Below are positions 3,026-29,509 of a stretch of 47,168 nt of DNA, piece after piece (within the stretch, counting starts at the first letter, position 1; each line of letters starts with the position of its first letter). The stretch comes from Ruminococcus sp. (GTDB lineage Bacteria > Bacillota > Clostridia > Oscillospirales > Ruminococcaceae), in the NCBI GenBank assembly GCA_017622925.1, contig JAGAQC010000031.1, positions 1-47,168 on the forward strand, written 5' to 3'. The notes under the pieces are model-generated. The model saw only the letters and a list, made by a program, of their open reading frames with translations, ran no database searches and was not told the origin of the DNA. Position numbers and translations under genes: made by a program.

Positions 3026-4021
3026 GTGAACATAAATATGGAGCTGTGCTTTAAGGAGCTACAGTCGTTTATTATACATGAGGAGACAATAAAAAATTCT
3101 TCGGAGCAGACGGTATACAATTATTACCGTGATATGCTGCTATTTTTTAAGTATATGAAGTTCTTGAAATATAAATATCCAAAGGATATGATAATAGATG
3201 ATATTGACATCACGGATATTGACGAGGAATTTCTTAAAAATATTACTTATGAAGACCTACAGAGATATTTTCTTTATCTTAAATCAGTGCGGAAAAACGG
3301 CACTACGACGCGTAGGCGGAGAGTAGTTTCGCTAAGAAGGTTTTTCAAGTATTTACAGCTTAATCTGGAGATAATAGAACGAAATCCCACGGATAAATTA
3401 GTTGCTCCGAAGCTTGAAAAAAAGCTCCCAAAGTTCATGCTTGAAACGGAATGTATCGCCCTGCTTGATTCAATAAGCGGAAAAAACAGCGAACGTGATT
3501 ACTGTATTATCGTGCTGTTTTTGAATTCGGGCATACGTCTTAGTGAACTTGTCGGTCTGAACGATACGGACATTGACAAGCAGGGGAACGTTACCATCCG
3601 AGGAAAGGGCAGCAAGGAACGCCGTATCGTTTTCAACAGCGCATGTCTTGAAGCTATAGAGGAATACCTTGTGTTCAAGGAGAAATTCTTTGAGGGGAAG
3701 CCTTGCGACGAGCATGCAATTTTTGTCGGACGTTCGGGAAAAAGGCTTACAAACCGCTGGATAGAGGAAATAGTGAAAAAAAGAATGACCGCTGCGGGCT
3801 TCGGCGGACGGGAACTCAGTCCCCACAAGCTTCGCCATACGGCTGCAACGGTCATGTATCGCAGAGGAGTGGATATTCGCGCTTTACAGCAGATACTCGG
3901 ACACGAAAGTCTCGGTACTACTCAGATATATACCCACGTTTCGGACGCTCAGATAAAGGCTGCTATGACGGAATCTCCTCTTGAACGGCATAAAACTGCT
4001 GATGAAAATTCCGAGGAATAA
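3026..4021 (+). CDS. Xer-type tyrosine recombinase / integrase
   Basis: A 331-residue site-specific recombinase. Residues about 5-120 form the SAM-like core-binding domain (SSEQTVYNYYRDMLLFFKYM); residues about 140-315 are the catalytic domain with the complete set Arg (SGIRLSEL), Lys (GKGSKERR), His-x-x-Arg (HKLRHTAA), His (LGHESL) and the Tyr nucleophile (TQIYTHV). It cuts and rejoins DNA through a 3'-phosphotyrosine link. The GTG at 3026 is chosen because AGGAGGG lies six bases upstream; an ATG at 3038 is the alternative. Length and domain order match chromosomal XerC/XerD of Clostridia, slightly longer than usual, but the neighbouring accessory operon and repeat array leave a mobile-element integrase possible. 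Neither a dif site nor an att site was identified with certainty. Confidence 0.9.
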   Translation: MNINMELCFKELQSFIIHEETIKNSSEQTVYNYYRDMLLFFKYMKFLKYKYPKDMIIDDIDITDIDEEFLKNITYEDLQRYFLYLKSVRKNGTTTRRRRVVSLRRFFKYLQLNLEIIERNPTDKLVAPKLEKKLPKFMLETECIALLDSISGKNSERDYCIIVLFLNSGIRLSELVGLNDTDIDKQGNVTIRGKGSKERRIVFNSACLEAIEEYLVFKEKFFEGKPCDEHAIFVGRSGKRLTNRWIEEIVKKRMTAAGFGGRELSPHKLRHTAATVMYRRGVDIRALQQILGHESLGTTQIYTHVSDAQIKAAMTESPLERHKTADENSEE

Positions 4022-4161
4022 GCGGTTATCGAATAGAACATATCCATTATTTATATTTACTATATGAAGCTAAAAAATCACCTATGAATTTATAATCTTT
4101 CTTTTTCAGTCTAAAATAATTGATGCTGTAAATTCCTTATTTAATTTTTATATAACCGCTT
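4020..4161. repeat. 10-bp inverted repeat flanking AT-rich spacer
   Basis: AAGCGGTTAT (4020-4029) begins inside the recombinase stop codon and is matched by ATAACCGCTT (4152-4161), 122 bp away. The region between is AT-rich and has no gene. It could be a weak shared terminator between the convergent genes or a recombinase-related site. Confidence 0.35.
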
Positions 4162-4218
4162 ACAATATTGTTGATAATATTTTAACTTGTCTTATGATTC
4201 AATTCATTGCTTTTATAC

Positions 4219-5415
4219 TTACCATACTTCATAATCGTTTTCAACAGTATAAATCAAACTTGTAAAACTCAGGTCCTCTATTTTTGAACCGTTCATGACG
4301 GCTTCATTAACGGCGTTGAATCTTGAGCTTATGGATAATACGCGCAGGTTCTGCTCTTTTGAGGGAGATTTTTCGGATATGTAGCGGTATACCGCGTTTT
4401 CAATATATGCGTAGCTGCATAGCTGAGACTTTTTCAGTGATACGGTTGTTTTTGTTTCAGCATTATATGCGGTAATAGAATCGCCGTCTTTTATGTTTAG
4501 TAGTAATTGACAATAAATTTCAGGAATGAATGCGCTAAGCTCAAAGCCCAATGATTTTACGGGACAAGACGACACAATATCGCTCATAACTTCCTCATAT
4601 TTCTGCTGACTATTAATAGAAAACATTTTTTCTATAGCGTTGTATGTAAGTTTTTGAACTTGATCTTTTGTATATGGGCATGGCTTGTATGTTTCGTCCT
4701 TTTGAATAAGAAGGACAAACTGTTTGCATGTTCCGTAGTTTATCTGATGATCCGGTTTTGGGATAAGGCTCGAAAGCTTTTGCGTCAATTCGGGATAAAC
4801 GATACCGTTTATTCTTGCTTCACACGTTAGTTCATTTCCTGTCCATGCGGCGAACAGCTTGACCCAATAGGCTTTTTTTCTGCCAAGATAGCTTGAAATG
4901 TCTGATTTTAGCAGTTCCCATAGATCGGTGTTATCAATGATTTTTTCTCCCATGCAGAGAACTCCGAGGGTACACGGAACACGGAATACCGCTTTGCTGT
5001 TCATTATATCCGATGATATTTCATGATCTCCATCGCACTTTAACGCTCCGAGAGTAAAAGTTAGAACGCTTGTACAGAAGTTTACCGTACCCATTTTTAC
5101 GGCTTCGCTGCGGCTGCTGCCTATACCGGCGCACGATTCCACAAGTTCTTCGTCAAAGTACGGGTGAGTCATAATAAAGATAATTTGAACGGAACAGCGA
5201 CCGTTGCAGTTATTTATTTCGCCGATCTCCGCTTTCACGGAAAGGTTATATTCGCTGAAATAAAGAGAATTACCGATTATTTTACTGTTCGGAAATTTTT
5301 CTGCGATCATATTTAAAGGAGAGTTTTCGTCTGCATAAGTATTTTTTTCGGAGCGATCAGAAATTTCAGGCGTATTATCCGCCTTATTCTTTTTAAAAAA
5401 ATTAAATAATCCCAT
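4219..5415 (-). CDS. Hypothetical protein, possibly DUF6348-like
   Basis: A 398-residue soluble protein starting MGLFNFFKKN, a hydrophobic-basic opening typical of many uncharacterised cytoplasmic Firmicutes proteins; there is no signal peptide or membrane helix. The middle (residues about 130-260: CTLGVLCMGEKIIDNTDLW, SYLGRKKAYWVKLFAAW) resembles DUF6348 as I remember it, but this is weak. The gene is monocistronic, with its own promoter, and convergent with the recombinase. No function can be assigned. A suppressor-of-fused-like or phage/immunity-associated role would be speculation. Confidence 0.6.
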   Translation of the reverse strand: MGLFNFFKKNKADNTPEISDRSEKNTYADENSPLNMIAEKFPNSKIIGNSLYFSEYNLSVKAEIGEINNCNGRCSVQIIFIMTHPYFDEELVESCAGIGSSRSEAVKMGTVNFCTSVLTFTLGALKCDGDHEISSDIMNSKAVFRVPCTLGVLCMGEKIIDNTDLWELLKSDISSYLGRKKAYWVKLFAAWTGNELTCEARINGIVYPELTQKLSSLIPKPDHQINYGTCKQFVLLIQKDETYKPCPYTKDQVQKLTYNAIEKMFSINSQQKYEEVMSDIVSSCPVKSLGFELSAFIPEIYCQLLLNIKDGDSITAYNAETKTTVSLKKSQLCSYAYIENAVYRYISEKSPSKEQNLRVLSISSRFNAVNEAVMNGSKIEDLSFTSLIYTVENDYEVW

Positions 5416-27745: not shown

Positions 27746-27774
27746 TTGTTATTTATTCGTCTTTATAGTATAAT
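27746..27774 (+). promoter_or_regulatory. Promoter of dockerin-radical SAM operon
   Basis: TTGTTA (27746-27751), 17-bp spacer, TATAAT (27769-27774), 69 bp before the dockerin start codon. This gives the pair a transcription unit of its own, separate from uvrA. Confidence 0.7.
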
Positions 27775-27843: not shown

Positions 27844-28365
27844 ATGAAGAAAACCAAAAAAACGGTCATGACAGCGGCTTTATTTGCTGCGGCGATGAAT
27901 CTTGTTCCCTCGGGAGCAGTAGAAGCCGTTGTATCCAATGACGATATGGGTACTGTCTTTGCAGCCGATGAACCCGACAGTGAAAGCGTTGTCGGGGAGG
28001 TTGAGAATGATTTTCAAGGAGTATACGGTCCTCCGTGGATGATGCTTCCGGAAAGTCAGTGGCGAGGCGACGTCTACGAGGACGGCGTTATAGACGCTTA
28101 TGACATGGTTGAATTAAGAAAAAAACTGCTGAACGGTACAGAATCGGATTGGGATGCAAAGAGAGCCGATGTAAACGGTGACGGAGAAGTCGGAATATCA
28201 GATATGGTAATGCTTCAAAAGTATCTTATGGGGCAGATAGACGGCTTTACCGAAAAAGCTGAAACGCAAACGACCGAATCCACGTCAGGAATTAAAACTG
28301 AAATAGTCACAACTACTAAAACTGTTCCTGTGCCTGTTTACGGTCCTCCGAGCATGTTTGACTGA
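27844..28365 (+). CDS. Secreted dockerin protein with two VYGPP motifs; likely radical SAM substrate
   Basis: A 173-residue exported protein. Residues 1-28 form a signal peptide (KKTKK, then a hydrophobic core, probable cleavage after VEA). Residues 75-130 are a type I dockerin: two Ca2+-binding loops (D76-VYE-D80-G...D87 and D109-VNG-D113-G...D120), each followed by a helix. Dockerins bind cohesins and dock proteins on cellulosome-like scaffolds. The module is flanked by two copies of an unusual motif, VYGPPWMM at 60-67 and VYGPPSMF at 165-172, the second ending one residue before the C-terminus, after a Thr-rich linker. No enzyme domain is present. AGAAAGGA ten bases upstream fixes the start at 27844. 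The radical SAM gene begins ten bases after the stop, so the VYGPP segments are inferred modification sites. Confidence 0.85.
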   Translation: MKKTKKTVMTAALFAAAMNLVPSGAVEAVVSNDDMGTVFAADEPDSESVVGEVENDFQGVYGPPWMMLPESQWRGDVYEDGVIDAYDMVELRKKLLNGTESDWDAKRADVNGDGEVGISDMVMLQKYLMGQIDGFTEKAETQTTESTSGIKTEIVTTTKTVPVPVYGPPSMFD

Positions 28366-28375
28366 GGAAAGTAAA

Positions 28376-29449
28376 ATGCTTGATGTAAATATAAAAAAAG
28401 AACATATGAAGACATTAGAGGCGTACCGTGCGGGTTTGATGATAAAGCCTCAGCTCCGTCACTTGTTTTTGGAGCTTACTTTGAGGTGCAACGAAAAATG
28501 CCTTCATTGCGGAAGTAGCTGCGGCGATGTTTCTTCCGAAGAACTCACCGCACAGCAGTACGCAAAATTCCTTGCCGAGGTCAAGGGCGACTTCGGAACT
28601 AAGGATAAAATGCTCTGTATCACGGGCGGAGAACCGCTTTTGAGAAAGGATTTTTTCGATATAATGGCGGCGGCTCACGAACTTGGTTTCCGTTGGGGAA
28701 TGACAAGCAACGCCACTCTTATAGACGACAGCACAGCGCGTGAGCTAAAGCGTGTCGGCATGGGGACTATTTCTGTGAGCATTGACGGACTTGAGGAAAC
28801 GCACGATGCTTTTCGCCGTACTCACGGAGGTTGGCAGCGTGCAATGAACGGCATTGAAAGTCTGCTGAGAGTTGGCGGATTTAAGCACGTTCAGGTAACT
28901 ACTGTCGTTACTCATCAGAATATAGGTCAGCTTGACGAACTTTATAAGATTTTTAACGAAATGGAGATAGACTCGTGGCGAATAATCAATATTGAGCCTA
29001 TCGGACGAGCAAAGCAGCATGCTGATCTGCTTCTTACTCCCGAGGACTACCGATATATGTTTGAATATATCAGAAATAAACGTATTGCAGGAGAGCCTGT
29101 GACCTATGGTTGCAGTCACTATCTCGGTATGGAGTATGAACGTGAGGTCAGAGACTGGTATTACCTGTGTACAGCCGGTACGTACATAGCGAGCATTATG
29201 GCAAACGGCGATATAACGGCTTGTCTTGACATTGAACGCCGACCCGAATTTATACAGGGAAATATACTTACCGATCGTTTTAAAGACGTTTGGGAGAACA
29301 AGTTTGAGATATTCCGAAAAAATCTCAGCGAGGAAAATGAAAAATGCCGAATCTGCGCAGAAAAATGCCGTTGCCATGGCGATTCCTACCATAGCTGGGA
29401 CTTTGATAATCATGAACCGCAGGTTTGTTTTAAGGACATTTTATTTTGA
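28376..29449 (+). CDS. Radical SAM/SPASM enzyme, putative peptide maturase
   Basis: A 357-residue protein with the radical SAM cluster CNEKCLHC at residues 38-45 (CxxxCxxC), the GGEPLLR S-adenosylmethionine-binding motif near 90, SVSIDGLEETHDAFRRT and a C-terminal SPASM-type domain rich in cysteine: YGCSHY, YLCTAG, DITACLDI, then CRICAEKCRC and a final QVCF. SPASM proteins bind extra [4Fe-4S] clusters and modify peptides (PqqE, AlbA, thioether and cyclophane maturases) or proteins. AGGAAAG precedes the ATG at 28376, ten bases after the dockerin gene, indicating a substrate-enzyme pair. I associate this with the radical SAM peptide maturases known from Ruminococcus and Fibrobacter (FibroRumin), but could not verify that. 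Chemistry unknown. Confidence 0.88.
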   Translation: MLDVNIKKEHMKTLEAYRAGLMIKPQLRHLFLELTLRCNEKCLHCGSSCGDVSSEELTAQQYAKFLAEVKGDFGTKDKMLCITGGEPLLRKDFFDIMAAAHELGFRWGMTSNATLIDDSTARELKRVGMGTISVSIDGLEETHDAFRRTHGGWQRAMNGIESLLRVGGFKHVQVTTVVTHQNIGQLDELYKIFNEMEIDSWRIINIEPIGRAKQHADLLLTPEDYRYMFEYIRNKRIAGEPVTYGCSHYLGMEYEREVRDWYYLCTAGTYIASIMANGDITACLDIERRPEFIQGNILTDRFKDVWENKFEIFRKNLSEENEKCRICAEKCRCHGDSYHSWDFDNHEPQVCFKDILF

Positions 29450-29463
29450 ACGCAGCACCAAAA

Positions 29464-29509
29464 ATACCGCTAAAGTTGAGTTAGATCGCACTTTAGCGGT
29501 ATATTTTTT
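29464..29509. terminator. Bidirectional terminator between radical SAM gene and SGNH gene
   Basis: ATACCGCTAAAGT (29464-29476) pairs perfectly with ACTTTAGCGGTAT (29490-29502), followed by ATTTTTT on the plus strand. The genes on either side converge. Confidence 0.9.

Follow-up and report, generated by a model that had tools for sequence, protein, structure and literature searches.

The 47,168-nucleotide stretch of DNA analysed here (hereafter the window; positions 1 to 47,168 of contig JAGAQC010000031.1, Ruminococcus sp. assembly GCA_017622925.1) carries on its forward strand two adjacent genes, one for a small secreted dockerin protein and one for a radical SAM/SPASM enzyme, that appear to form a modification system directed at a short VYGPP motif. 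The first of these, the substrate or precursor gene, runs from an ATG at 27844 to a TGA at 28365 and encodes 173 amino acids (aa) with a signal-peptide-like N-terminus and no Cys; homologues occupy the same position. Motif 1, VYGPPWMM (residues 60-67; 28021..28044), and motif 2, VYGPPSMF (residues 165-172; 28336..28359), the latter one residue before the C-terminus, share the core VYGPP (residues 60-64 and 165-169) and enclose a type I dockerin module (residues 75-128; 28066..28227) that scores 47 bits against PF00404, with a cut-off of 22.9. The enzyme gene starts with an ATG at 28376, 10 bases past the precursor stop, and ends at 29449, encoding 357 aa. Its product matches Radical_SAM (PF04055; 80.2 bits, cut-off 29.5) and SPASM (PF13186; 33.6 bits, cut-off 21.5; residues 265-327; 29168..29356), the latter with the auxiliary cluster cysteines in conserved columns, and its CX3CX2C cluster motif (residues 38-45; 28487..28510) is invariant in an alignment of 50 enzymes; by these matches the protein belongs to the radical SAM/SPASM family. 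Scanned with an exact DNA pattern for VYGPP, the 2.5 Mb host genome gave two sites, both within the window precursor, and a reversed-pattern control gave no match. Open reading frames (ORFs), Pfam and the DNA pattern therefore bear out the arrangement given in a preliminary description of this DNA. The observation is in fact stronger than was supposed there, pointing to a motif-substrate system with swapping carriers, while the interpretation offered at the time was partly right.

That the enzyme is the partner of the VYGPP protein is supported, the pattern of their co-occurrence across loci arguing against chance. A search of genome contigs with the enzyme recovered 64 loci, 59 of which have at least one same-strand YGPP ORF upstream, and in 58 of these the nearest such ORF stops no more than 100 bases from the enzyme match. 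At least two YGPP ORFs were counted in 34 of the 59, with a maximum of eight in L088 and L092; this count is only mechanical, because the 122 precursor ORFs, chosen for at least one YGPP, include doubtful starts and overlaps (L059:3499, L089:4053/4315/4439, L058:2878 and L087:24). As to the five loci with no YGPP ORF (L095, L096, L099, L102 and L103), L099 is truncated by the end of its contig, and two small upstream ORFs of L103 end in VYGPGP plus two to three residues. In L095 (5001-8019) and L096 (5001-8067), the gene after the enzyme encodes a protein in which inspection by eye suggests a papain-like peptidase and, at the C-terminus, a dockerin. Finally, L102 (4049-7094), from a Bacilli metagenome-assembled genome, has a TIGR04133-like enzyme in a 457-aa frame with an N-terminal extension, small neighbours that look WXG100-like by eye and, downstream, a 224-aa protein with three KYGV motifs, which suggests a secretion-system substrate carrying X-Tyr-Gly.

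Co-occurrence is also seen at the level of whole genomes. At an E value up to 1e-50, the enzyme was found in 28 of 60 genomes of the genus (the window's included) and in none of 39 others among the 99 relatives searched, and the VYGPP pattern scan took in 60 of these 99. The preliminary description had set VYGPP proteins without a radical SAM neighbour against its own reading; over the 36 genus genomes that formed the base of a Fisher test, at least two VYGPP sites were present in 13 of 17 enzyme-positive genomes versus 1 of 19 enzyme-negative genomes (p 1.5e-5). The sole exception, G004, has two precursor genes that run off a 3 kb contig on the side where the enzyme is expected. The enzyme-positive genomes short of VYGPP (G006, G007, G024 and G032) have another residue before YGPP, mostly Leu, as read directly in G024 and G032 and, for G006 and G007, from loci L072 and L074, which appear to correspond to them. 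A stray VYGPP in the enzyme-negative G017 lies at a reading-frame end. A looser pattern, TAYGGNCCNCC, was uninformative: it matched in 98 of the 99 genomes, and in many of them its reversed control was found at least as often. As a side observation, a 71-aa lipoprotein with GCVYGPP (L162:2562-2774, genome G018) lies on a contig other than that of the enzyme and may be an unlinked substrate.

The pair itself seems to be the whole unit. Although uvrAB flanks it in the window, a search of 69 other loci found uvrA retained in no more than 15. Among ORFs of at least 110 aa in 66 loci, no widely conserved third gene was seen near the enzyme; among smaller ORFs (45-130 aa) on the enzyme strand and at most 1.5 kb away, the largest cluster covered 4 of 64 loci, in a BLASTP comparison that could miss short, diverged proteins. 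Neither the large-ORF nor the small-ORF comparison showed a transporter or protease gene consistently adjoining the enzyme, as the preliminary description had said of the window. With uvrA seldom kept and no third gene widely conserved, the unit would therefore consist of substrate and enzyme; neither an RRE protein nor a transporter or protease is in evidence.

What is conserved in the substrates is the motif, and within the motif its Tyr-Gly. In the 122 precursor ORFs there are 305 [VLAIM]YGPP sites, versus a shuffled mean of 0.08. Single replacements number 0 for Tyr, 0 for Gly, 6 for the first Pro, 34 for the second Pro and 18 for the preceding residue X, and both prolines are changed at 33 sites versus 15 expected by chance; these ORFs were picked on one YGPP, and many hold several, so that the remaining sites were free to vary. 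Likewise, 26 further precursors outside this set have 45 intact sites and 0, 1, 4 and 4 replacements of Tyr, Gly, first Pro and second Pro, respectively. Across 402 distinct YG contexts, X is mostly Val (184) or Leu (110), and the commonest flanking residues are Pro at -2 (133), Gln at -3 (151) and Phe at +6 (100), with an aromatic residue or Met at +6 in 160 of 297 YGxP contexts. By sequence, most substrates are exported and anchored, and there are often several motifs per substrate, set in Thr-rich linkers. Judged from these counts, the motif core is an absolute Tyr and an almost absolute Gly, preceded by an aliphatic residue. The preliminary description had proposed the Tyr, or else the Met, Trp or Phe, as the target of the enzyme; Tyr remains likely, and the other three are unsupported because the residues following PP vary among precursors.

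The carrier of the motif, in contrast, is exchangeable. A dockerin was found in 83 of 123 precursor ORFs and no dockerin match in the other 40, one ORF having a DUF805 domain, and a lipobox-like pattern is present in 29 of 122. When the dockerin label is placed on an enzyme tree of 55 selected sequences, it changes five times, and at least three of these changes are forced by well-supported branches. The comparisons thus indicate carriers (dockerin, lipoprotein or membrane protein) that swap while the motif stays. A conserved N-terminal segment, MKKTxxTxLTAAxFAAA (27844..27894 in the window), emerges as the consensus of 123 precursor ORFs and would serve as signal peptide and possibly also as recognition leader; in lipoproteins of other families it is kept in part or not at all. 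Display of the modified protein on the cellulosome through its dockerin, as suggested in the preliminary description, is therefore only part of the picture: the dockerin is not essential, since 40 precursors show no match to it and, beyond the genus, the motif is carried by lipoproteins or membrane proteins. For the window precursor itself the suggestion fits, its dockerin being accompanied by seven cohesin matches in the same genome, as would be expected of a cellulosome component. The host genome gave 67 dockerin matches, four of which are repeats: contigs C46 and C55 hold four matches each, mirrored on opposite strands, and look like copies of one sequence, so that counting dockerins in this assembly gives a slight overestimate.

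In the NCBIfam comparison (the best 25 of 77 matching families), the window enzyme matches TIGR04133 (rSAM_w_lipo) best, at 267.8 bits (267.2 in a second comparison), short of the curated cut-off of 425, and it is 31-34% identical to three TIGR04133-type examples; on these scores it is a divergent relative of that family. Its closest counterparts among the named loci come from Ruminococcus flavefaciens and other Ruminococcus genomes of rumen and gut. Membership in the FibroRumin-type maturase group, which the preliminary description had considered, did not hold up: the lone TIGR04136 match in the genome (E up to 10) lies on contig C68, away from the window locus, and scores 79 bits against a cut-off of 400. 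A confident AlphaFold2 model of the enzyme (pLDDT 94.4) has a generic SPASM fold, and its best Foldseek matches (SkfB; SuiB; CteB, entries 5why/5wgg; BlsE; and anSME) are generic SPASM maturases that leave the chemistry undecided. Across the 50 aligned enzymes, two further cysteines are conserved, Cys 49 nearly invariantly and Cys 246 invariantly.

Relatives beyond the genus, chosen by the enzyme alone, repeat the pairing. Specifically, a search of 391 genomes of the class with TIGR04133 (E 1e-60) gave 16 matches, comprising the window genome and 15 others from seven genera and five families, and in all 15 of the latter an X-Tyr-Gly small protein lies beside or close to the enzyme. The motif reads YGPP in 12 of them (L183, L187-L196 and L146), YGSP in L184, YGVP in L185 and YGID in L186; the L184 motif protein is the second gene downstream, and the L188 neighbour is cut at a contig end, its N-terminus unseen. 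In eight of the 15 (L183, L189 and L191-L196), the motif follows a lipobox-like Cys directly or after one residue, for example as GCVYGPP, ACGYGPP, ACAYGPP or GCGMYGPP, and none of the ten neighbours scanned with Pfam has a dockerin.

There is also a link to a named family of gene pairs. In Parabacteroides, Phocaeicola and Treponema, a TIGR04133-type enzyme adjoins a TIGR04134 lipoprotein with CEYGSP, CEYGTP or CYGMP, and the Bacillota locus L183 combines an enzyme scoring 385.6 bits to TIGR04133 with a lipoprotein that matches TIGR04134 at 52.3 bits (cut-off 39.8) and contains CGMYGPPP. The dockerin proteins of Ruminococcus therefore share YG-x-P with those Bacteroidota lipoproteins that were inspected. 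These systems resemble the window pair in enzyme type, in the two-gene layout, in an exported anchored substrate and in its YG-x-P; they differ in that the window enzyme falls below the family cut-off and in that the TIGR04134 substrate is a lipoprotein with the motif at its lipid anchor, whereas the window substrate has a dockerin and carries its motif more than once. TIGR04134 did not match the window precursor at E up to 10; its search of the host genome was empty as well, as were the controls, making that result uninformative.

Searched with the enzyme, IMG/VR yielded L147 as a single close locus (59%) besides 13 weak ones; no relatives emerged from that database when the query was the Parabacteroides enzyme or the window precursor. 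In L147 (3243-5059) the enzyme adjoins a zinc-ribbon protein. A similar protein in G022 (L166:1227-2513) shares one frame with an ArgC-like protein, without an enzyme; the two zinc-ribbon proteins have YGSP or YGPPP right before the zinc-binding CxxC.

The explanation favoured here, if with only slightly more belief than doubt, is a two-gene modification system that acts on X-Tyr-Gly in exported, anchored scaffolds, most likely splicing it to ketoamides that are possibly protease inhibitors. The enzyme would recognise a short X-Tyr-Gly-(Pro-Pro), with X mostly Val or Leu, in unfolded linkers of its partner before export and would modify the Tyr-Gly core. Once modified, the partner would be exported yet stay attached to the cell, here through binding of its dockerin to cellulosome cohesins and in relatives by a lipid anchor or membrane helix. 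The result would be a surface-bound electrophile, most plausibly a Pro-Val or Pro-Leu ketoamide warhead for protease inhibition, which may protect the cellulosome and envelope in rumen and gut in parallel to dockerin-serpins. What the sequences themselves establish is the pairing, the motif with its near-invariant Tyr-Gly, the exchange of carriers and the relation to TIGR04133. That the enzyme modifies the motif is very probable, and excision of tyramine, argued from analogy with spliceases, is marginally the more probable form of that modification; protease inhibition as the role, an analogy again, is plausible but on balance doubtful.

Spliceases cut out tyramine and leave a ketoamide, a loss of C8H9NO (135.068 Da by calculation; printed as 135.0757 in PMC10533398). 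Known examples act on X-Tyr-Gly, according to passages in three papers in which the products are called protease inhibitors (PMC10533398, PMC11002830, PMC11117315), a term that the last of these, in the part concerned, applies to spliceotide products (PMC11117315). Portions of one of these sources assign the splicease PlpX to IPR026482, give it the RRE protein PlpY as partner, and describe the modification as occurring widely and as providing a moiety that can inhibit proteases (PMC11002830). The two VYG sites of the window satisfy the substrate rule, the enzyme is likewise a radical SAM protein with SPASM, and the near-invariant Gly directly after Tyr fits. The precursor of nif11-class maturase 3 (TIGR04103), which is presumably the family of PlpX, on a Nostoc plasmid has the C-terminus GRGSIALYGLPPELF, strikingly like VYGPP-x-x-F. 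The locus in question (L171:5615-7436, Nostoc sp. C057 plasmid) comprises a Nif11 precursor ending in ALYGLPPELF, the maturase and a 71-aa small protein, and its neighbours are annotated as a TOMM leader-binding protein and a SagB dehydrogenase. The window system differs in that its precursors have no Nif11/NHLP leader, beginning instead with a signal-peptide-like segment, and in that the substrate is a large, whole, exported and anchored protein.

Several points weigh against splicing, or against the system as a whole. The window enzyme scores 119.8 bits to TIGR04103, whose cut-off is 725; families of heme synthesis and mycofactocin outscore the nif11_3 family on it (among the best 25 of 77); and in an enzyme tree of 24 selected sequences, it lies outside the nif11_3-type clade with support of 97/97 on each side. 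Window-type enzymes have no conserved PlpY/RRE-like partner nearby, and the Nostoc enzyme is without the extra cysteines 49 and 246, so that the cluster set may differ. The Gly is not without exceptions, as seen in LYAPP of a G020 precursor and EYAPP in a protein beside the L184 enzyme, and a near-motif, EYEAP, occurs in L187 and L188. The enzyme is present with no YGPP ORF in L095 and L096, and G022, an enzyme-negative genome that is 64% complete, has its zinc-ribbon protein with VYGPPP, so the motif alone is not diagnostic. Finally, the inhibitor role is drawn from analogy and from X being Val or Leu, with Pro often at -2.

Further relatives of the Nostoc enzyme were observed on the way. On an Agathobacter rectalis plasmid (L138), a 35-aa ORF (3806-3910) ending in VMYGTGVRM lies upstream of a radical SAM enzyme (3995-5149) that is 32.5% identical to Nostoc maturase 3 and shares the extra cysteines of the window enzyme; this is possibly a spliceotide system in a human gut bacterium. 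Radical SAM maturases about 48% identical to that of Nostoc have DUF1843 peptides beside them in L178, L180 and L137, and these peptides contain X-Tyr-Gly or X-Tyr-Ala/Met close to their N-terminus. On a Tropicibacter oceani plasmid (L179), the genes after a radical SAM enzyme related to the Nostoc maturase encode two peptidases, one trypsin-like and one of the M23 type.

If the reaction is not splicing, X-Tyr-Gly might be subject to another radical reaction, such as a C-C or C-O cross-link between the Tyr and a neighbour, β-carbon oxidation or epimerisation, yielding a stabilised turn or an adhesive residue. SuiB and SkfB, which make cross-links, are among the closest solved folds of the enzyme, and both the two extra cysteines relative to Nostoc and the frequency of an aromatic residue or Met at +6 would agree with such chemistry. 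The residues after PP vary, however, leaving no fixed cross-link partner, and a Tyr that is never replaced, followed by a Gly that almost never is, fits the splicease rule; this alternative is accordingly considered rather unlikely. Thioether formation of the sactipeptide or ranthipeptide type, or mycofactocin-like chemistry, would likewise suit a SPASM enzyme on which mycofactocin and other peptide maturases score well (138.1 bits for the mycofactocin maturase, among the best 25 of 77 families). The former founders on a precursor without Cys, and mycofactocin requires a C-terminal Val-Tyr; the two MftA sequences compared end in GVY, whereas the window Tyr is internal and followed by Gly, and the scores are far below the cut-offs of those families. 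The maturase MftC is akin in acting on a Val-Tyr pair, as stated in part of one source (PMC8326336). It differs in having a small peptide ending in that pair and a partner, MftB. Such chemistry is very improbable here.

Alternatively, VYGPP could stay unmodified and serve as a tag for binding or sorting, with the enzyme acting on some other substrate. The YGPP zinc-ribbon protein of G022 and the retention of the enzyme in L095 and L096 are what such a tag would allow. Against it are the 15 loci from five other families in which the pairing recurs with differing carriers, the up to eight tandem substrates per enzyme, the co-occurrence across genomes and the lack of any other widely conserved neighbour, all of which make an inert tag improbable. 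With dozens of dockerins in the genome, one might even adjoin an unrelated radical SAM gene by accident, but the pair persists where the uvrAB flanks are gone, and substrates without a dockerin still pair with the enzyme, reducing the probability of a chance neighbourhood to almost nothing.

Two regulatory features of the locus have weak evidence. A promoter-like TTGTTA-17-TATAAT (27746..27774, forward strand) matches a sigma-70-like site at 10 of 12 positions, with three sites found versus 3.7 expected in shuffles, and a terminator-like hairpin with a T-run lies 3' of the enzyme gene on the same strand (29485..29500; three found versus 1.9 expected). A single promoter for both genes, as the preliminary description had it, is a possibility only. 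Literature searches on VYGPP, on TIGR04133/TIGR04134 and on radical SAM enzymes with dockerin, cellulosome or lipoprotein turned up no paper on such a system, judged by titles and the opening of abstracts; an earlier account may exist in Scott et al. 2022 (Chem 8:2659).

Were the favoured splicing to occur, its product would resemble a known strategy. A ketoamide after Pro-Val or Pro-Leu is a classical design for inhibitors of serine and cysteine proteases. In the host genome, moreover, a serpin and a dockerin share one 735-aa frame (contig C10, 63569-64906). Cellulosomal serpins have been proposed, in excerpts of one report, to shield the cellulosome from proteolysis (PMC5301203), and the dockerin-serpins treated there, Clostridium thermocellum PinA and the R. 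flavefaciens Doc-Serpin, would be the nearest parallel as proposed dockerin-fixed protease inhibitors on the cellulosome; they differ in that a serpin is a folded inhibitor domain, whereas the window inhibitor would be a modified linker motif. Other roles of the modified motif are possible: it might bind amines covalently, or its function might be structural only.

The boldest version of this proposal, speculative and unlikely as it stands, is that the cellulosome and membrane of fibre-degrading Ruminococcus bear multi-copy, ribosomally encoded ketoamide warheads, in the form of whole exported proteins with Val/Leu-Tyr-Gly linkers spliced by a stand-alone TIGR04133-type splicease; these would form a renewable shield of anchored inhibitors, and the same reaction would account for the unassigned radical SAM/lipoprotein systems of Bacteroidota. 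Under the favoured explanation, a testable reaction would become available for TIGR04133, a number-only family of gut Bacteroidota and Treponema with divergent relatives in Firmicutes, and radical SAM backbone editing would extend to whole anchored surface proteins, cellulosome parts included. The system further points to VYGPP as a short genetic tag that, used with an enzyme lacking an obvious partner protein, might serve to install reactive ketoamides in proteins. Finally, many dockerin proteins of R. flavefaciens are described, in the relevant portion of one study, as having regions of unknown function (PMC2930009), and some of those with unexplained regions may be such substrates.

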